Shown here: piece by piece, positions 2,766 to 16,880 of the stretch
Position numbering within the stretch: the stretch's first letter is position 1
How the letters are laid out: each line of letters starts with the position of its first letter
Assembly (NCBI GenBank): GCA_947478865.1
Contig: CANJXF010000012.1
Span: 1-64,000 of the forward strand
Direction of reading: 5' to 3'
Length of the DNA: 64,000 nt
DNA from: Verrucomicrobiales bacterium
GTDB lineage: Bacteria; Verrucomicrobiota; Verrucomicrobiia; Limisphaerales; CANJXF01
The notes under the pieces: generated by a model
What the model was told of the DNA's origin: nothing
The model's input: only the letters and a program-made list of their open reading frames with translations
Database searches by the model: none
Made by a program: the position numbers and the translations under genes

Positions 2766-4289
2766 ATGCTCGCTAACGATTCAAATTCCAATCAAGCCGC
2801 AAGCGGTGGCGCACGCTATGGTTTTAACTTCGTTCGCTTCGGCCTGATCGGCGCGCTGGTTTTGGCTGTCATGCTCGTGGTTTTTGGTGGATATGTCTGG
2901 TTCTTCTGCCGCATCGAGCCACCTTCCGGCTTTTGTGCCGTACTGGTGCGCAAGGATGGAAAGACCATTCCCGCCAACGACATCATCGCCATTACCGCCG
3001 ATCAAAAAGGAATTCAATTGGAACCGCTGAGCGAAGGTCGCTATTTCTATAACCCAATCAACTGGTCATGGAAAATGGAGCCTTTGACCCAGATCAAAGA
3101 AGGCCAGGTCGGCATCATGGTTCGGCAATTCGGCGCTTCTCCTCCGGCAGGCAAATTTATTGTGCGGATGAAAGAACCAGACGGAACAATGCATCGCGGG
3201 ATTATCGATGAGCCGCTGCGTCCGGGAACCTACCGAATCAATCCAAGCGCTTATCGCGTGGAAAAACGGCCTGCGGTTAAGATTGAGCCCGGCGAAGTCG
3301 GGGTGGTGACCTTGCTCTATGGAAATACTCCAGCGCAACCGAACACCTTTCTCGTCAAAGAGAGCGAGCAAGGCGTTCAGGAAACGCCGCTGCGCCCCGG
3401 AACTTATTATTTAAATCCATATATTCAACGCGTTGATATCGTCGGCGTGCAGAGCCACAAGACGGAATTCGAAATCAGCTTTCTTTCAAAGGACGGATTC
3501 CGTTTTCCAGTGAAAGGCGCAGTCGAATGGGCCGTGGAAGAATTGCGCGCACCGGAAGTGCTGGTGATGATCGGCGACGGCGAAGACATCGTGAACAAAG
3601 TCATTTTGCGCTCGGCGCTTTCCATGAGCCGCGTGCAAGGTTCGAAATATAGTTCCGCCGACGTGATCAGCGGCACGGTTCGCAAATCGTTCCAGGACGA
3701 GTTCAGCAAACACATCGCCTCGGAGTCAGCACGAAAAGGAATACTCGTCAAAGCAGCGTTGATCAGCGAAATCGAGCCTCCCCAAAAAATCGCCGAACCG
3801 ATTCGCGAACGCGAAGTTGCCGTGCAAACGCGAACGAAATATGAGAGGGAAATCGAGCGTGCCATCACCGATGCCAACGTCGCCGAGCAAAAAAAACTAC
3901 AGGATCAGAAGGTGCGAATCGTCAAAGCCGATACCGCTCGCACGAACCAGATCCAGCGGGCAAACAAGGATCAGCAGGTCCAAATCATCGGCGCACAACG
4001 TGATTTGGCGGTCGCCAAAAAAGATTTGGAAACGGCGGAGAAATTGGCCCTCGCCATTGTTTCCACCGGACAGGGCGATGCCGACGTTATTTCCTACACG
4101 CGCAAAGCCGAAGCTGGCGCACTCAAAGCGATCATCACGCCGTTTGGAAGCGGTTCCTCTTACGCACGTTTTTTGTATCTGAACAAAGTTGCGCCGAACA
4201 TTGATTCGATCCTCGCCAACAGCGATGGCCCCCTCGCCGAGCCGTTTCGCGATCTCTCGAAGCCCGAAGTGAAAGGAGGTGCCAAATGA
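2766..4289 (+). CDS. Membrane-anchored SPFH/band 7 protein (first of pair)
   Basis: A 507-residue protein with a short cytoplasmic N-terminus and one strong membrane segment at about residues 25-47. A set of related beta-rich repeats follows, each with the pattern EPGEVGVV or EGQVGIM, then PG(T/R)Y and a (L/I)NP ending. These lead into a prohibitin-like SPFH core (about 225-340) and a long charged coiled coil (about 340-450) rich in Glu, Lys and Gln. This architecture fits flotillin/HflK-like scaffolds that oligomerise on the membrane and organise proteases or lipids. It overlaps the next gene, a paralogue, by four bases (ATGA), so the two are very likely translationally coupled partners. Exact function is unknown. 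Confidence 0.82.
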   Translation: MLANDSNSNQAASGGARYGFNFVRFGLIGALVLAVMLVVFGGYVWFFCRIEPPSGFCAVLVRKDGKTIPANDIIAITADQKGIQLEPLSEGRYFYNPINWSWKMEPLTQIKEGQVGIMVRQFGASPPAGKFIVRMKEPDGTMHRGIIDEPLRPGTYRINPSAYRVEKRPAVKIEPGEVGVVTLLYGNTPAQPNTFLVKESEQGVQETPLRPGTYYLNPYIQRVDIVGVQSHKTEFEISFLSKDGFRFPVKGAVEWAVEELRAPEVLVMIGDGEDIVNKVILRSALSMSRVQGSKYSSADVISGTVRKSFQDEFSKHIASESARKGILVKAALISEIEPPQKIAEPIREREVAVQTRTKYEREIERAITDANVAEQKKLQDQKVRIVKADTARTNQIQRANKDQQVQIIGAQRDLAVAKKDLETAEKLALAIVSTGQGDADVISYTRKAEAGALKAIITPFGSGSSYARFLYLNKVAPNIDSILANSDGPLAEPFRDLSKPEVKGGAK

Positions 4290-5893
4290 AAAAAAGCCCA
4301 CTCGCAGTTTTGACGGCGACCGCAGCGGTTCTGCTTTTCCTTTACCTATTTGTTTATGAAGGCATCTGGGTCTGGATCGTCGAAAACACGGATGTTCCTC
4401 CCAATAAGATGGTGATTCTCGTTGCGAAAACCGGGAAAGCCATGCCCGCCGGACAAATCATCGCCGGCCCCGGAGAAAAGGGGGTGCTGCTTGAACCGCT
4501 GGGAACCGGCCGCCATTTCATCAATCCGTTTCTTTTCGAACGCCAGCTTCGCGAGCAAGTCCTGGTCGGCCCCGGCGAGCTCGGCGTGGTGATCAATAAA
4601 AACGGCACCGATTTGCCACCTGGAGAATTTCTGGCGCAGCCCGGACAACGCGGCATTCAGCGCGAAGTCCTGTTGCCCGGCACCTACAAACTGAATCCGT
4701 ACGCTTACGAAATTCGCACGGTCAAGATGACTGAAATTGAGCCCGGCCACGTCGGCGTCATCGCCGCCCGCTCTGGCAAGGCGACGCAAAATCAATTAGC
4801 TGAACCGGGCGAACGTGGCGTGCAGAAAACCGTGTTGCAACCGGGGCTGTATGTTCTGAACCCAGAAGCGTATTCCGTCGAGAGCATTGAAGTCGGGTTC
4901 AATCAGATCACGATGGCGCACGGCGGAAAACTTCCTGAAACGCAAACCACTGGACAAACAGAGTTGAATCGCGAGAAGAAAGCGCCGTCGGGTTCGCTGA
5001 ACGCCAGTCAAACTCAATCCGGAGTCCCGGTGCTTCCAGCCGTGCGGTTTCCCTCCAGCGACGGGTTTGAAATCACCATCGACGTTACGTTACTCTGGCA
5101 ACTGTTGCCGCAGGATGCGCCCAGCGTGGTTTCGCGCTACGGCAACATTCGGAAAATCGAAGGCAACATTCTGATCCCGCAAATTAATTCTACCGCGCGC
5201 ATCAAAGGCTCCACGTTCGGGGCCGTTAATTTTATTGTCGGCGACAAGCGCGAAGAGTTTCAACGGGCTTTCCAGGAAACGATTGAAACCACATTAAAAG
5301 AGAAAAAACTGCAGGTGGATCTCGCGCTGGTTCAGGACACTTTGGTGCCGGACGACATTTCCGGGCCGATTCAGGATTCGCGCATCGCCGCCGAGTGGAA
5401 CATCACGAACACTGAGAAAACCAAGACCGAAGCCAAGAAAGCGCAACTGGACGAAAGCATGGGCAAGATCGCGCAAATTGAACAGGTCGTTGAATTTGAA
5501 ACGCAACGTTTGGAAGGAAATCTCGTGGCTGAGCAGGAAAAACAAGTAAATCAAATTGGAGCCGAAGCGCGTTTGAAAGTAGCTGAACTCGCGAGCGAAA
5601 CGGCGATTATGCGCGCCAACACGAATCGCAAGATTGGCAGCGCAGAAGCCAAGGTTCTCGAATTGAAAGGCAAAGCCGAAGGCGATGGATACGCGTTGCA
5701 AGTGCAAGCCGCCGGAAGCGCCGCGGATTACAACGCATTGCAATTCGCCAAGCAGTTGCCGGAACGAATCCGTTTATCCTTAATTTACGCTGGTTCCGGC
5801 ACCCTTTGGACCGATTTGGATAAGGCATCGCAACTCGCGCCTTTGGAATTGTTGAAACAAGTGAAGCAAGTCGAACTCGCACCGAAAAAATAG
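4286..5893 (+). CDS. Membrane-anchored SPFH/band 7 protein (second of pair)
   Basis: A 535-residue paralogue of the preceding gene. It has one N-terminal membrane helix (about residues 7-24), three beta-rich repeats with GPGELGVV, EPGHVGVI and similar turns, an SPFH core (about 255-360) and a long coiled-coil stalk (about 370-460). The stalk ends in the Ala/Glu-rich EAKVLELKGKAEGDGYALQ segment typical of prohibitin/stomatin tails. An insertion of about 40 residues with NREKKAPSGSLNASQTQSG is low complexity. The start is the ATG of the ATGA overlap with its partner. The two proteins probably form a hetero-oligomeric membrane assembly. The small membrane gene 1 base downstream is likely part of the same operon. 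Confidence 0.82.
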   Translation: MKKSPLAVLTATAAVLLFLYLFVYEGIWVWIVENTDVPPNKMVILVAKTGKAMPAGQIIAGPGEKGVLLEPLGTGRHFINPFLFERQLREQVLVGPGELGVVINKNGTDLPPGEFLAQPGQRGIQREVLLPGTYKLNPYAYEIRTVKMTEIEPGHVGVIAARSGKATQNQLAEPGERGVQKTVLQPGLYVLNPEAYSVESIEVGFNQITMAHGGKLPETQTTGQTELNREKKAPSGSLNASQTQSGVPVLPAVRFPSSDGFEITIDVTLLWQLLPQDAPSVVSRYGNIRKIEGNILIPQINSTARIKGSTFGAVNFIVGDKREEFQRAFQETIETTLKEKKLQVDLALVQDTLVPDDISGPIQDSRIAAEWNITNTEKTKTEAKKAQLDESMGKIAQIEQVVEFETQRLEGNLVAEQEKQVNQIGAEARLKVAELASETAIMRANTNRKIGSAEAKVLELKGKAEGDGYALQVQAAGSAADYNALQFAKQLPERIRLSLIYAGSGTLWTDLDKASQLAPLELLKQVKQVELAPKK

Positions 5894-8608: not shown

Positions 8609-11600
8609 ATGAAAAAAAATCGTATCCTCATGGCCTCTTTGATGTGCCTCGGAGCTCTGCTTGGGTTTAACGCATCTGCGCAGGTTATGAAAACCTTAAC
8701 GCCGATCACGACCTTCGGCCCGCATGGCGATGGAAGTTACCAACCAGGGGATGCCAGCTTCATCACCTCAGCTTCATCCCAACGTGGCATCGCCTACAAT
8801 CCGGTTACCGGGCATATTATCTTCGTTGATCGGGAAATTGGCGGAGCCGTTTCGGCGAGCGTCACCGGAAACATTTATGTACTGGATGGAACCACGGGAA
8901 CCGTTCTTGGCACCCTTAATACCAATGGAATTTCTGGGGGCGACTATGCTGATTATGCAGTGCAGGTCGATGATGCGGGCGTCATTTACATCGGAAACTT
9001 CGTCAATACCGGCGCCTCCTTCTACAAACTTTATCGTTGGGACAGCGAAAGTTCAGCCACAAACGGCACTCCGCCCCTAATGGTTTACAACGCTGACCCC
9101 GGGAGCGGGCACGCCCAACGCTGGGGATCAACCATGGATCTGCGTAATTCAGGCGTTGCCACCCAGATAATTCTCGGCTCCCAAACTCAAAGCACGGGCT
9201 CTGCAACGAACATCGCGATCTTGACCACCATGGACGGAACCAATTTCACAGCAACCACTCTCACTACCGACATTCAGGAAAACGATTCCGCTTTTGGGAT
9301 CGCCTTCGGAACAGGCAACACTTTTTGGACCAAAAACATTGGAGGAAGACCATTGCGACAATTGAGTTTTGATCTGGGCACATCCAATGCCGTAACGGTT
9401 CGCAACCTGAATGCAACCAACCTTCCCTCCGGGGATAACCTGGGGCCAATCGCCATCGATTCCGCGAACAACCTGCTGGCAGCAATGGAAATAACCAGTT
9501 CGTTCGATGTGGTTCGTCTCTATGATATTTCCAACACCAACATCGCGCCTGTTCTCATGGACGTTAAGACTTTCCCGGTAAACTTCGCCAATGTGTCGGC
9601 TACGGCAGGATTTTTGGATTTTGGCGGAGGAAAACTGTATGCTCACAGCATTAACAATGGCCTGCTGGCGTTCACCGTGGGTTCGGTTGCCGCAACGACT
9701 CCAATCATCCTCTCGCACCCAGCTGGACCAGTGCGCAAGGCTTCGGGGCAAACGGCTTCGTTCAGTGTGCTAGCGTATCCTGGCACTTCCTATCAATGGC
9801 TCAAGGATTCCAACCCGATTTCTGGCGGAACCAATTCGGTTCTAAATCTGGCCAATCTTCAAACCAACCAAACAGGTTTCTATTCCGTCGTGGTGAGCAA
9901 TTCCGCCGGGACCGTGACAAGTTCGACGGCTCAATTGACCGTTCTTGATCCATCGAGCTTATTCCGTTTGACATCGCTCTGGAGCATTGCACCGAATAGC
10001 CGCACCTATGTGACTTCAACTGGCGGTGCGGGCACTCCGAACGAGCGTTTTATCGGCTACAGTGCGATTTCGAACGAAATTTATGTCGTTTCTCATAATG
10101 CAGCCAACTACGTGATCGCGGTCTTAAACGCAACCAACGGCGTTGAAAAAGGATTTCTCAATACCAACGGAGTCAACGGTGGAAGCGTGGTCTATCTGAA
10201 TGCCATCGCAGTCGCTTCAGATGGATCCATTTATATTGCGAACACCACCACCCCTGCGACCGAAGCCGCTCCAACGAAGATTTATCGCTGGGCCAATTCA
10301 AATCCCAGCACGGTTCCCGTACTTGTTTACTCCGGAGTTCCCGATTCATCAGTCCCAGGCGGGCCAAGCGGCACAAGATGGGGCGATGTGATGACAATCC
10401 GGGGATCCGGGCTGAACACCCAGATTCTCCTGGATAATTGGGTAACGACCTCTATTGCTGGCTCCTATGGAGCGGTCTTGAGGCCGACCGACGTCAATTT
10501 GACTAACTTCACCGCAACAGGAAACGTTCACGCAACCGCCCCTAATTTAAAAATCGGCCGAAGCATACAATGGGATCCCAACGGGAATGACTATTGGGCC
10601 AAGAAAGGCAGTAACCGGCTTGAAAAATTTACTTTTGATCTGGACGGTTCCAATGGCGGCCTTAGCGCAGGGCCAACGATGTACACGAATTTCCCCGTTT
10701 CACTCGGGTATGTAGCGATGGATTTCAGCAGAAATTTATTGGCGGGTGTCAATTATGCCGCCAGCACAGCTTCGCCACAGCAGGTTGTGCTCTACGAAGT
10801 CAGCGATTTAAATTCACCTCTTTTGTTAGATACAAAGAATTTTCCAGCCAATAAGTCCAACAACAACAACATCCTCGGGAATATAATTTTCGGGGCAAAC
10901 AATCTCCTGGTTGCCATGGACGGAAACAACGGCGTTGCAGCATTCGTCGTGGACCAAGGCCCTCCAGTGCCGCCCGCAATTCAGACCCAGCCTTCCGACC
11001 TTCGTTTAGTTATTGGAGGGACTGGAACTCTCAGCGTATCCACTCCAGACAGCGCAACCTTCCAGTGGCGGCTCGGCGGCACCAACATTCCGGGTGCCAC
11101 AGCAAATTCGTATACCATCGCCAATGCCCAATTCACCAACGCGGGAAATTATAGCGTGGTCTTGTCCAACGCCTATGGTGCGACGTTGTCGTCCAATGCA
11201 GCCGTGACCATCGTGTCTCCAAACGATGTCTACCAGCTTTCACCTGCGTGGAGCGCCGCGCCAGGAAGCCAGCCTTATGTGACCGATTCCGGCAACGCAA
11301 ACTCGCCCAATGAACGCACTCTCGCCTACAACTCCCTCTCCAATCAGGTGCTCGTGGTTCGAGCGCTTCCGAACAGCACGGATTATGGGATTCAAGTGGT
11401 AGACGCGACGACCGGCGTGAAACTTTACGACATGAACACGAACGGCGTCCAAACCGTCGTTTCTGAACTCAGCGGCTCCAGCGCCCTTTACCTTTGCGCC
11501 ATCGCGGTCGCTGACGACGGCGCGGTTTATGCCTGCAACGGGTCTCCTAACGCCTCGGGCGGCACCAATGCTGAAACGGCCAAGATGTTCCGGGTCTATC

Positions 11601-12418
11601 GCTGGGCCAATTCCGGCCCGTCCACTCTGCCGGTCAATATTTTCACCGGCGACCCTGCCAACCAGACGGCAAATGTTCGCTGGGGTGATGTCATGAGTGT
11701 GCGCGGCAGCGGCACCAATACCGAACTCGTGCTGGACTCCAAGACTGGAAGTTTTGCTGCTCTGCTCAAGCCGACGGATGCCAGCATGGCAACCTTCACC
11801 AACTATTCATGGGCAAGTCTCGCTGGCGACGGCTCAATTGGTCGAAGCCTCCAATTTGAAACCAACAACACGGTCTGGCAAAAACACAAAGGCACTGCGC
11901 TGAAGAAGTCCAGTTACAGCACCAACAGCCAAACCAGCGCTCTGTTAGCCAGCTATTCTTTCCCGTCCAGTTTGGGGCCGGTGGCAATTGATCACCCTCA
12001 CAATCTCATGGTGGGTTTGGATTTCTTCGGCTCGACCAACGGTCCCGATGCGGTTGCTCTCTATGAGATATCCAGCTTCTCTTCTCCCTTGCTGGTCGCA
12101 AAATACAACTTTCCACAAAATGCACGTTTGAACGACAATTTCATCGGCCAATGTGTAGTCGCGGGAACCAAGGTTTACGCACTTAATGGAAACAACGGAC
12201 TCCTTTCCTTCAACCTCGTTCCGCCAACTGGGCCAGCGTTGAGCATTGCGCGCCTCGGATCCACCGTCCAACTCACCTGGCCGGATGGAAGTTACATCCT
12301 GCAAGGCACGACGAATCTAAACCCAACCATAATCTGGTCGGACATTTCCACGGCCGGAGAAACCAACAAAACTGAAAGCGCTGCCAGCGGAAATAAATTC
12401 TACCGCTTGAAAAAATAG
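8609..12418 (+). CDS. Large secreted protein: three propeller-like units with Ig-like domains
   Basis: A 1269-residue protein with a signal peptide (basic MKKNR, hydrophobic core, cleavage near residue 25 after NASA). It contains three homologous units of roughly 330 residues (about 30-360, 450-785 and 873-1207). They share features such as RTYVTSTGGAGTPNERF / QPYVTDSGNANSPNERT, AIAVA(S/D)DG and R(W/R)GD(V/M)M. Two Ig-like domains separate them (about 367-447 and 790-871, each with Y/F-QW and N-Y-SVV-SN-G). The last 60 residues form a short module ending FYRLKK. It is probably a surface or extracellular beta-propeller-like protein; ligand unknown. Upstream are two TTGACA boxes, and a hairpin terminator follows. 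Confidence 0.8.
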   Translation: MKKNRILMASLMCLGALLGFNASAQVMKTLTPITTFGPHGDGSYQPGDASFITSASSQRGIAYNPVTGHIIFVDREIGGAVSASVTGNIYVLDGTTGTVLGTLNTNGISGGDYADYAVQVDDAGVIYIGNFVNTGASFYKLYRWDSESSATNGTPPLMVYNADPGSGHAQRWGSTMDLRNSGVATQIILGSQTQSTGSATNIAILTTMDGTNFTATTLTTDIQENDSAFGIAFGTGNTFWTKNIGGRPLRQLSFDLGTSNAVTVRNLNATNLPSGDNLGPIAIDSANNLLAAMEITSSFDVVRLYDISNTNIAPVLMDVKTFPVNFANVSATAGFLDFGGGKLYAHSINNGLLAFTVGSVAATTPIILSHPAGPVRKASGQTASFSVLAYPGTSYQWLKDSNPISGGTNSVLNLANLQTNQTGFYSVVVSNSAGTVTSSTAQLTVLDPSSLFRLTSLWSIAPNSRTYVTSTGGAGTPNERFIGYSAISNEIYVVSHNAANYVIAVLNATNGVEKGFLNTNGVNGGSVVYLNAIAVASDGSIYIANTTTPATEAAPTKIYRWANSNPSTVPVLVYSGVPDSSVPGGPSGTRWGDVMTIRGSGLNTQILLDNWVTTSIAGSYGAVLRPTDVNLTNFTATGNVHATAPNLKIGRSIQWDPNGNDYWAKKGSNRLEKFTFDLDGSNGGLSAGPTMYTNFPVSLGYVAMDFSRNLLAGVNYAASTASPQQVVLYEVSDLNSPLLLDTKNFPANKSNNNNILGNIIFGANNLLVAMDGNNGVAAFVVDQGPPVPPAIQTQPSDLRLVIGGTGTLSVSTPDSATFQWRLGGTNIPGATANSYTIANAQFTNAGNYSVVLSNAYGATLSSNAAVTIVSPNDVYQLSPAWSAAPGSQPYVTDSGNANSPNERTLAYNSLSNQVLVVRALPNSTDYGIQVVDATTGVKLYDMNTNGVQTVVSELSGSSALYLCAIAVADDGAVYACNGSPNASGGTNAETAKMFRVYRWANSGPSTLPVNIFTGDPANQTANVRWGDVMSVRGSGTNTELVLDSKTGSFAALLKPTDASMATFTNYSWASLAGDGSIGRSLQFETNNTVWQKHKGTALKKSSYSTNSQTSALLASYSFPSSLGPVAIDHPHNLMVGLDFFGSTNGPDAVALYEISSFSSPLLVAKYNFPQNARLNDNFIGQCVVAGTKVYALNGNNGLLSFNLVPPTGPALSIARLGSTVQLTWPDGSYILQGTTNLNPTIIWSDISTAGETNKTESAASGNKFYRLKK

Positions 12419-12436: not shown

Positions 12437-12478
12437 ATCGCCGGCCTGAAAAATCAGTCCGGCGATTTTTATTTTTCC
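12437..12478 (+). terminator. Rho-independent terminator after the large secreted protein
   Basis: Stem ATCGCCGG / CCGGCGAT (12437-12444 and 12459-12466) with a 14-base loop, followed by TTTTATTTTT. It lies 18 bases after the stop codon. Its T-tract overlaps the last codons of the convergent RidA-triple gene. Confidence 0.8.
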
Positions 12479-13671
12479 GAGACGGCGATCATGTCCATCG
12501 TGACGGCCATTCCCGGAAACCCGACCGAACGGGTCAAGGCTTTCGAAGCCGCTGGCGGTCGATTGGGATTGTAGAACTTCGGGCGTAACTCATTCAACTT
12601 GTTGCTGGCGGCGGAATCCGAGACGTAATAAGTCGCCTTCGCCAGCGAATCAAAATTACTCCCGGTTTCTTGAGCGGCCTGCCTCAAAGAAGCGAAAATT
12701 TCCAAAACTTGTTGCTCCGCATTTCCCGGCGTTTTGCCGTAGAGTCCAGAGACGTAAACCAGCTTTCCGTAATTCACCCGCGCTACTTTGCTATAAACAT
12801 TTGAAACCTGAAACCCAGGAGGAGTGATGTAGCTGATCGACTCGCCGGCGGCACGATTTTCTGGAGCGGCTGCGATCAACTCGATTTCAATGGGAAGTTT
12901 GGGGCTGATCCAATCGACAAAGACCACCGGCGGAGCAGTTTCCCCCTGAAAAAAATCGGCGATTTGTTTCCGCGCAACCGCAGTGCCGGCCATCGGATCA
13001 ATGAACGCCTTGATCTGCACCACGTCTCTTTTACCCAAACCAAGAAAAGTCAACGTATCGCCCAAACTTTGCATCGTTTGCCTGGTGGCGTCAGCGAGTT
13101 CCCCTGGCTTCGCCTGGCCTGAGATATAAACCACGCCACCCTTTGGCAAAATGCTCACCTGCGCCCCGGAAACTTGGCCGCGCAAAGCGGAAACCTGGAT
13201 GCGTTTCGTTTTGGCTTCATTGAACTTTCTTGCGGGAGCGATTGCATCCATCGCAACCAAGGCGTTGGTATTATCCAAGGTGCCAACCACAAAACTCACG
13301 GCGGGCGCAGGTTTCTTATTCCATTTTTTTACCACCGCCATTTGCACCTCGGACACCGCCGTTTCGGTGGCGGCGTAAACATTGATTTTGACGGCGGTTT
13401 CGAGATCTGCGCCCGCCGCCTTGAGGGCTTGAGAAATGTTTTGGAATGTCTGAGCAATCTGCTTTTCGATATCACCTTTGCCGACGAGTTCGCCTTTTTC
13501 GTTGAGCGGCAGCAATTGTGCGGTGTGGGCCAGAGCCACTTTATCGGCAACAACGGCCAATGGAATTTCGCCAGCCCGTTTGAGCGTGGCGGAATCCGCC
13601 TTCCCATTTGCCGCCGGTGAAGTTGCCGAAATGGCGGCGACCAGAGCGCAAGTAGTGACGAGATATTTCAT
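12469..13671 (-). CDS. Exported protein with three tandem RidA/YjgF domains
   Basis: A 400-residue protein with an N-terminal signal peptide (about residues 1-20) and three successive RidA-type domains at about 35-146, 160-269 and 283-398. Each has the pattern (V)YISGQ / LVYVSGLYG, a helix with Q-x-x-x-x-(I/L)-x-x-x-L (for example TFQNISQALKAAGADLE), K-x-x-(V/A)-Y and a final (A/M)D-x-IA strand. RidA normally is a 130-residue cytosolic homotrimer that deaminates reactive enamines. Here three copies lie on one exported chain, and the conserved Arg of the PAR motif is not seen in any copy (KPAPAV, APPVVF, RPPAAS). Start chosen at ATG 13671 to give a signal peptide; a frame extends 45 codons upstream without similarity. 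Not a typical deaminase. Confidence 0.82.
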   Translation of the reverse strand: MKYLVTTCALVAAISATSPAANGKADSATLKRAGEIPLAVVADKVALAHTAQLLPLNEKGELVGKGDIEKQIAQTFQNISQALKAAGADLETAVKINVYAATETAVSEVQMAVVKKWNKKPAPAVSFVVGTLDNTNALVAMDAIAPARKFNEAKTKRIQVSALRGQVSGAQVSILPKGGVVYISGQAKPGELADATRQTMQSLGDTLTFLGLGKRDVVQIKAFIDPMAGTAVARKQIADFFQGETAPPVVFVDWISPKLPIEIELIAAAPENRAAGESISYITPPGFQVSNVYSKVARVNYGKLVYVSGLYGKTPGNAEQQVLEIFASLRQAAQETGSNFDSLAKATYYVSDSAASNKLNELRPKFYNPNRPPAASKALTRSVGFPGMAVTMDMIAVSEK

Positions 13672-13782: not shown

Positions 13783-14319
13783 GTGAGCACGACTCGGAAC
13801 ATTCAAAACATCGCTCTCATTGGGTTCATGGGAACGGGCAAATCATCGGTTGGAAGGCTGTTGGCAGAGCAGTTTCAGTTCAAATTTCTCGACACCGACG
13901 AATTGATTGAGCAGCGGGCAGGAAAAAGCATCGCCCAGATTTTCGAGCAGGACGGCGAGGCCGCATTTCGAAAATATGAGCAGGACATCCTTCAGGAAAT
14001 CGGCGAGTTGAAACAAGTTGTGATTTCGACCGGCGGCGGTTTGGGCGCCAATCCCGCCAATTTGGCCAGCTTGAAGAAACACGCGCTGGTCATTTGCCTT
14101 TGGGCTCCGCCACAAGTCGTTTGGCAGCGGGTGCGGAACCAATCCCATCGCCCATTGCTACAAACGACAGATCCACAGGCGAAAATCAGGGAGCTGCTGG
14201 CAGAGCGCGAACCGGTTTATCGCGAAGCGGATATTCTGGTCAACACCGAGGTCCGCTCTCTCAAAGAAGTTGCGCAACACGTTGGCCACGAATTTTATTT
14301 GGCAACTCGACAGCGGTGA
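13783..14319 (+). CDS. aroK: Shikimate kinase
   Basis: A 178-residue P-loop kinase phosphorylating shikimate at the 3-hydroxyl in chorismate synthesis. The Walker A motif GFMGTGKS is at residues 14-21. FLDTDELIEQRAGKSIAQIF binds shikimate, AFRKYE supplies the conserved Arg-x-x-Glu, and the STGGGL Walker B-like motif and the lid Arg in HRPLL are present. Length fits the family. The start is a GTG at 13783. It overlaps queG by four bases (GTGA), suggesting co-translation, and is divergent from the RidA-triple gene. Confidence 0.96.
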   Translation: MSTTRNIQNIALIGFMGTGKSSVGRLLAEQFQFKFLDTDELIEQRAGKSIAQIFEQDGEAAFRKYEQDILQEIGELKQVVISTGGGLGANPANLASLKKHALVICLWAPPQVVWQRVRNQSHRPLLQTTDPQAKIRELLAEREPVYREADILVNTEVRSLKEVAQHVGHEFYLATRQR

Positions 14320-15652: not shown

Positions 15653-16880
15653 ATGAATTTACCAGCCAATTTTTTGAAAAAGACAACGGCGAAACGGGCC
15701 ATTTCCTTTTTGATCTTTTCCCTACTTTCTGCTTCTCAACTATCCCATGCAACCACGTATACGTGGGACGGCACCGGCACCGGCTCTTCTCTAAATGCTT
15801 GGGATGCCAAGAAACTGGGGTAATGCTGCGGTTCCTGGAGTGGCTGATATCGGAAGCTTTGGCGCAGTTGCGCCCGGTAACAGCACTGTTCCGTCTGTAA
15901 ATTTAAACGCGTCTATTTCGAACATTGTTTTTAATTCCGGGGCTTCGACCTACACGTTTGGTGGAGCAGCGGTTCTCACGGTCGGCGCTACTATCCAAAA
16001 CAACAGCGCATCCATCCAAACAATCAACACTTCATTGGCTTTGGCCCGTGCTCAAACTTGGACCGCAAACACAGGAAACTTAGCCTTTGGAGGTCCAATC
16101 AACAATGGTGGCTTTGCCCTTACGATTGCCGGTGCTGCCAATACCTCGATTGCTGGAATTGTCAGTGGATCAGGTGCATTGAATAAAAGCGGGAACGGAG
16201 CGTTGACGATTACAGGAGCCAACTCTTACTCAGGCGGAACCACGGTCAGTGCGGGTCGGGTATTGGTCAACAATACCACGGGCAGCGGCACCGGAACGGG
16301 AGCAGTTACGGTAAACGGAGGCACTTTTGGCGGAAGCGGCAGCATAACGGGCGGGCTTACGTTGAATTCTACAGGTCGGATTTCTGCCGGGGATAGCGCA
16401 GGATCAAGCAGAGTTGGAACATTTACCTCTGGCAATCAAACATGGAACGGTGGAGCCGCGATGGATTTGGAAATTAAGGATGCCGCATCTACTGCTGGCA
16501 CCGGTTGGGATCTCCTGAGCATTAACGGCACACTTGCCATCAATGCCACATCCGGGAATAAATTCACCATCGACATTTCCACCCTGACTTTGGCTAACGT
16601 GGCTGGGAACGCGGCCAATTTTAATGACTCCACCGGCTATACTTGGACGATCGCCACAACGACTGGAGGAATTACCGGTTTTGATGCAAGCGCCTTCAAC
16701 TTGATTACTTCCGGTTTCAGCAATCCGCTGAACGGCTCTTCCCAATTTTTCATCTCTCTTGTAGATAGCGGCAATGGTTTGGCGATCACTTATGTTCCTG
16801 AGCCATCAACCATCGCGCTCGGATTAATTGGTGCTGGTGTGATTGCTGGACGATTTTTCCGTCGTCGCAACACAAAATAG
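15653..16880 (+). pseudogene. PEP-CTERM, autotransporter-type beta-strand repeat protein, frameshifted
   Basis: An ATG at 15653 opens a frame encoding a signal peptide (basic LKKTTAKRA, hydrophobic core, cleavage near SQLSHA) and then TTYTWDGTGTGSSLNAWDAKK, but it stops at 15824-15826. The continuation NWGNAAVPGVADIGSFG and the rest of the protein lie one frame over and are open to 16880. Removing one A from AAGAAAC near 15815 joins the two as WDAKNWGNAAVPG, the usual start of this family. The body holds Gly/Asn/Thr-rich repeats such as GTGALNKSGNGALTITGANS-like strands. The C-terminus VPEPSTIALGLIGAGV plus RRR is a PEP-CTERM sorting signal. The downstream frame alone (from 15795) would lack a signal peptide. 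It could also be a sequencing error. Confidence 0.8.

Follow-up and report, generated by a model that had tools for sequence, protein, structure and literature searches.

Our analysis shows that the gene at positions 12469..13671 (minus strand) of the window, i.e., the whole 64,000-nucleotide stretch of verrucomicrobial DNA that was analyzed, belongs to a distinct, old and sporadically occurring family of three-domain Rid proteins that lack the active-site arginine of RidA. Its product is very likely an exported chain of three diverged Arg-less Rid domains which would adopt a covalent pseudo-trimer fold, and the family probably does a different job outside the cell interior than classical Rid proteins. 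Imine deamination is the known activity of Rid proteins; a widespread exported branch with fixed replacements and fusions gives concrete functional clues and supplies defined residues to mutate as well as candidate substrates.

Read on the minus strand, the gene runs from an ATG at 13671 to a stop codon at 12471-12469 and encodes a product of 400 aa, whereas translation of the same span on the plus strand is interrupted by stops. The coordinates given in a sequence-only reading of this DNA were right, and the strand, which it had left unstated, is minus. PF01042 matches the protein in three stretches (Pfam, whole protein: E 5e-36, 123.8 bits, cut-off 27.3), and in a whole-genome search the separate domains score 52.1, 42 and 40.8 bits, each above the PF01042 cut-off, so that chance cannot account for the three-domain match. 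With the RidA model of NCBIfam, TIGR00004, the protein scores 76.3 bits, below the cut-off of 106.25, and the best-matching solved proteins in a sequence search are Rid proteins with a single domain (YabJ, E 5.5e-07). Domain D1 covers about residues 36-148 (13228..13566), D2 about residues 153-272 (12856..13215), and D3, the best conserved of the three, about residues 274-400 (12472..12852), all on the minus strand. They are preceded by a predicted leader of about residues 1-25 (13597..13671, minus) that resembles a signal peptide, with Lys2 followed by a hydrophobic stretch, and a simple hydrophobic-window criterion detects an export-type N-terminus in 75 of 80 relatives. The description of three Rid-type domains on one chain with a signal peptide, made earlier from the letters, is borne out by the three profile matches and the leader. 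The source genome also carries three single-domain Rid genes, all of them Arg-bearing (FPARST, LPARTT and GARSAV).

Within the window the Rid gene has no close co-oriented neighbor: a convergent gene, which adjoins it, ends at 12418, and a divergent gene, shikimate-kinase-like by reading, begins at 13783. As the gene stands alone, its own genomic context lends no support to the function proposed below. The convergent gene (8609-12418, plus) encodes a 1269-aa protein with a leader and, by eye, some three repeats separated by Ig-like segments. Elsewhere in the window, inspection by eye indicates a Gly/Ser/Thr-rich repeat protein ending in a PEP-CTERM-like sorting tail (15795-16880, plus) and two adjacent, related, large membrane-anchored proteins that are band-7/flotillin-like (2766-4289 and 4286-5893, plus).

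AlphaFold2, supplied with an 86-row alignment, predicts the 400-aa sequence as one compact chain (mean pLDDT 92.8, pTM 0.90), with low confidence over residues 1-30; a pTM of this height indicates that the relative placement of the three domains is confidently predicted. Chorismatases rank first in a Foldseek search with this model, and a Toblerone-fold enzyme is found among the matches at rank 30. The best whole-chain match in the PDB according to VIA-align is a chorismatase as well (5a3k_C; Z 12.6, rmsd 3.5 A, 195 aligned residues, model 43-397), and single Rid chains align to the domains of the model with Z of about 9-10.8 and an rmsd of 1.7. No AtzD-type chain appears among the 50 VIA-align rows listed, which is no evidence against kinship. 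The single-chain pseudo-trimer that the sequence-only reading had envisaged is consistent with the confident, compact model and with a single-chain chorismatase as best whole-chain match, and from these we infer the ring itself. Covariation analysis (APC-corrected mutual information, 109 sequences, Neff 77) gave signals for both possible orders of the domains round the ring. The alignment of single RidA chains over residues 25-399 of the model hinted that the mature N-terminal strand might lie against D3 and so complete the ring. This idea was set aside: residues 21-30 are of low confidence, and the row for 5v4f_A (25-147) disagrees.

RidA of the source genome (L001) served as the reference to which all three domains were aligned and as anchor for E. 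coli RidA numbering (Tyr17, Gln19, Ser30, Asn88, Tyr91, Cys107 and so forth). Arg105, Tyr17 and Glu120 are residues of RidA that PMC4433059 names. The arginine of the PAR motif is missing from every domain, as had been noticed earlier: its position is occupied by Val125 in D1, Val249 in D2 and Ala375 in D3, and in none of the 86 members of the family does an Arg lie within ±2 alignment columns of the Arg105 site in D1, D2 or D3. Throughout these 86 sequences, D1 has mainly Val, Ile or Leu at this site, D2 mainly Val, Leu, Cys or Ile, and D3 has Ala in 85/86. An arginine in a structurally equivalent place, which by the sequence-only reading would refute its idea, may still be present: there is none within those columns, but D3 has the basic residues Arg363, Arg/Lys295 and Lys377 at pocket-aligned positions. 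Because basic residues arose nearby in D3, the suggestion that loss of the arginine means a ligand without a carboxylate is unestablished.

The three domains have diverged unequally. The catalytic Glu120 is retained in D2 alone, as Glu262 in all 86 members, and is gone from D1 and D3. D1 has mostly Ala, Gly or Ser at this position and mostly hydrophobic residues at the Arg105 and Cys107 positions, and its conserved residues are His49 (78/86), Gln52 (85/86) and Asp142 (86/86). D2 has, besides its Glu, Trp254 and Lys221, each present in 86/86, and also Ser184-Gly185. In D3, as aligned, Cys107 is replaced by Lys377 (84/86; codon 12541..12543, minus) and Tyr91 by Arg363 (85/86; codon 12583..12585, minus), Asn88 is retained as Asn360 (73/86) and Gly31 as Gly309 (82/86), Ser376 is found in 85/86, and the Glu120 position is mostly Thr or Ser. 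Moreover, Tyr17 is retained as Tyr/Phe293 (86/86) and approximately the Gln19 position is taken by Arg/Lys295 (86/86), an equivalence which presupposes, on our reading of the sequences, a D3 hairpin two residues longer; in the automatic alignment without this gap, Arg/Lys295 falls at Tyr17. Relatives had to match a short pattern around the KATYY motif of D3, so that residues 342-350 owe some of their conservation to the way the sequences were selected, and that of the search-pattern residues K345, T347, Y348 and Y349 is to be discounted. One divergent fusion to DUF7133 (L122:1-2784, minus) reads PAASGF, not PAASKA, with Gly at the Lys377 position, which means that Lys377 is not universal; the genome of L122 (G677) has a second copy, L106. 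The arginine was lost and yet basic residues were gained, and judged from this pattern a rebuilt site appears likelier than a dead one; the near-invariant polar residues at pocket positions argue against a dead fold.

A scan of named genomes yielded 159 relatives, 80 of which were kept; the cultivable Singulisphaera acidiphila DSM 18658 and Adhaeribacter aerolatus are among the genomes with a match. Counted from deposited titles, which belong to mostly metagenome-assembled and possibly in some cases mis-binned genomes, these comprise about 49 Planctomycetota, 17 Verrucomicrobiota, 9 Bacteroidota, 4 Acidobacteriota and 1 Omnitrophota. The 86 proteins of the family alignment, from which L009, L010 and L013 (likely duplicates of L033, L066 and L070) and L019 (the outgroup) were excluded, form 63 clusters at 60% identity. 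Of 57 further genomes from the same order, 8 contain a full-length relative (40-47% identity), and full-length relatives are also present in 21 of 391 further genomes from the phylum to which a Singulisphaera (G443, genome of L036) belongs. Among 386 other genomes drawn from the source phylum none was found, and the result was again 0/386 when the alignment was used as query.

In a tree of 60 domains, D1, D2 and D3 each form one clade (support 0.79, 0.97 and 0.99), indicating that fusion of the domains predates the spread of the family. Arg-bearing RidA and the exported Arg-bearing 3x proteins (L019, L090 and L095) lie outside these clades. Proteins of the 3x-RidA type have already been published (PMC4433059), and exported Arg-bearing ones exist in related genomes, which would suit an ordinary 3x-RidA member that has drifted at the arginine and kept its function. 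We consider this hardly credible, as the domain clades of the family are separate from the domains of the Arg-bearing 3x proteins and as the family has a fixed set of other residues in a fixed replacement pattern. In two Acidobacteriota loci (L090:4706-5917 and L095:4703-5917, one sequence cluster) an exported three-domain Rid gene with Arg in all domains lies directly upstream of the Arg-less gene; the two coding regions abut, which offers a natural pair in which functions can be compared. Another Arg-bearing exported three-domain Rid gene (L019:1252-2484) is found in the same genome as L008. The Acidobacteriota genome of L090 (G447) contains 27 PF01042 matches, several of them in long open frames, a large Rid expansion.

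Neighborhood analysis compared 176 operon-like neighbor genes with 376 other flank genes, each of at least 110 aa. Genes for DUF7133/TIGR02604 PVC-type heme-binding proteins, which we take to be putative periplasmic dehydrogenases, make up 10/176 of the former and 1/376 of the latter, an enrichment whose p of 7e-05 treats genes as independent and which by sequence cluster amounts to 5 versus 1. Sulfatases account for 24/176 versus 13/376 (p 3e-05 by gene; clusters 8 versus 7). In a smaller sample of 63 of 120 upstream and 47 of 85 downstream operon-like genes, from which near-identical Bacteroidota loci, more distant genes and very short genes were left out, set against 110 of 359 control genes, Pfam and phmmer identified sulfatases in 16/110 versus 2/110. 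A motif-based count (9/170 versus 10/367, p 0.14) had missed true sulfatases and was replaced by the Pfam/phmmer assignments. The sulfatase link is significant by gene count but not by independent clusters, and we regard it as weak support. DegT-type aminotransferases (9/176 versus 1/376) stem from 8 loci in 3 clusters, and 3-keto-disaccharide hydrolases (2/176 versus 0/376) have a p of 0.10. In 28 of the 80 loci there is no co-oriented gene within 260 bp upstream.

The Bacteroidota loci, except L093, share a gene order in which a heme-binding-protein gene and a small gene (HiPIP-like in L021) precede the Rid gene, and in 7/8 of these loci (two sequence clusters) an aminotransferase gene follows. 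Such a neighbor, together with three pocket positions that are basic in nearly every member, would fit a protein that is still an imine/enamine deaminase, acting on exported imino acids with a relocated D3 base (Arg363, Arg/Lys295 or Lys377) in place of Arg105 as carboxylate binder. Thr167 of plant RidA contacts a 2-oxoacid ligand according to PMC4960622, which points the same way if, as we read it, this residue is at the Cys107 position. We nevertheless hold continued deamination of this kind to be improbable: exchange of the Arg for Ala nearly abolishes RidA activity (PMC4433059), Glu120 survives in a single domain, and the aminotransferase neighbor is confined to a particular lineage.

Partners are also found within the same polypeptide. 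The Rid chain is fused in frame to DUF7133 plus cytochrome c in L035 and to DUF7133 in L122, where the stretch covered contains no cytochrome c. It is further fused to a 3-keto-disaccharide hydrolase (L072 and L091), to BNR/sialidase-like repeats (L087), to a BD-FAE/alpha-beta esterase-like domain (L114) and to Sel1 (L030). In L093 a tyrosine-phosphatase-like part is N-terminal to the Rid chain, and in L079:5797-8619 and L097:5782-8619 the chain continues into some 500 C-terminal residues without a Pfam match. L012 and its relative L056 adjoin genes for an amidohydrolase and a 3-keto-disaccharide hydrolase, and L013 sits after a DUF1501 gene. The most consistent partners, and the best functional link, are the heme-binding proteins (DUF7133), with 5 independent operon lineages and 2 fusions, followed by sugar-degradation domains. 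The range of partners (aminotransferase, phosphatase, Sel1) and the 28 loci that lack a close co-oriented upstream gene would suit an accessory or broad role equally well. The chain might accordingly be a non-catalytic exported pseudo-trimer that binds a ligand, docks or acts in a chaperone-like manner to aid partners such as the fused PVC heme-binding proteins. The loss of the essential Arg from all domains and of the catalytic Glu from D1 and D3 would agree with such a module, as would the variety of its fusion partners, Sel1 repeats among them, and one Rid protein has a reported chaperone activity (PMC4433059). We judge it rather unlikely, as the invariant polar residues at pocket positions of D2 and D3, seen over 86 sequences, exceed the needs of a scaffold.

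Enzymatic activity at a rebuilt, asymmetric site has, in our judgment, about an even chance. The three domains would fold into a covalent pseudo-trimer in which three once-identical inter-subunit clefts specialized separately, with the former Arg side of D1 turning hydrophobic. One or two of the clefts would then carry the rebuilt catalytic site, to which D2 may contribute Glu262, Trp254 and Lys221, and D3 Lys377, Arg363, Arg/Lys295, Asn360, Tyr/Phe293 and Ser376. The target might be a reactive carbonyl, enol or imine released outside the cytoplasm by PVC-type heme-binding proteins and sugar-degrading enzymes, rather than one of the cytoplasmic 2-iminoacids. From the neighbors and fusions a carbohydrate-derived substrate may be suggested, if somewhat doubtfully. 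A precedent for a Rid protein required in the catabolism of sugar acids is OngD, a RidA-family protein described in PMC9537276 as essential for growth on oxidized GlcNAc, with its role unknown, and DUF1080 (PF06439) proteins are tied to periplasmic 3-keto-sugar hydrolysis in PMC9007349. In its most specific and, to us, unlikely form, the model would describe a new extracytoplasmic enzyme class, a covalent Rid pseudo-trimer in which a single composite, asymmetric site, built of Lys377 and Arg363 from D3 with Glu262 and Trp254 from D2, acts on unstable keto, enol or imine compounds that arise when sugars or amino sugars undergo heme-linked oxidation in the periplasm. If true, four phyla would have in common a Rid-fold enzyme devoted to such chemistry outside the cytoplasm.

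Comparison with known systems places the family beside several groups. Niehaus et al. 2015 (PMC4433059) named the 3x-RidA proteins, presumed covalent trimers exemplified by EF_0115 of Enterococcus faecalis, and described Arg-lacking Rid subfamilies without known function. Like 3x-RidA, the present proteins carry three Rid domains in tandem on a single chain and are presumed to be covalent trimers; unlike 3x-RidA, which is placed in the RidA subfamily, the family is exported and lacks the Arg in all three domains, and each of its domains forms its own clade, the distinction from EF_0115 resting on the description of the latter. Rid4 to Rid7, compared by their description in the same paper, also have the Arg replaced, but are said there to have the Glu in all, whereas here it is found in D2 only, on an exported chain of three domains. 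With RidA and YabJ (PF01042) the family shares fold and sequence profile; these are single-domain trimers with Arg105, in contrast to one chain without Arg105 and with Lys at the D3 Cys107 position. In openly licensed full texts we found no published description of an exported, Arg-less three-domain family with unequal domains and fusions. What is new here is this exported family, the inequality of its domains and its partners and fusions; 3x-RidA and the Arg-less subfamilies have been known since 2015.

Structurally, the family is closest to the chorismatases (Hyg5 and FkbO; 5a3k, 5ag3 and 4bps), the best whole-chain match and likewise a Rid-like fold in a single chain, of which 195 of about 332 residues superpose. 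No chorismatase is among the sequence-profile matches at E 0.001, and chorismatases feature an acidic active-site Glu (Glu-334 in Hyg5) and, to judge from the titles of structure entries, accommodate several reaction types in one fold. Cyanuric acid hydrolase AtzD, with its Toblerone fold, is a single-chain enzyme made of three joined YjgF-like units according to PMC3758960. Its site is near-symmetric, with three Ser-Lys dyads, whereas the three domains of our family are unequal: Ser376-Lys377 are adjacent in D3 only, and no Lys is found at that position in D1 or D2. Chorismatases and cyanuric acid hydrolase indicate that single-chain Rid-like folds can turn into new enzymes, and the exported Arg-less family would add to the examples of homotrimers that became a single chain and whose once-equal sites have diverged.
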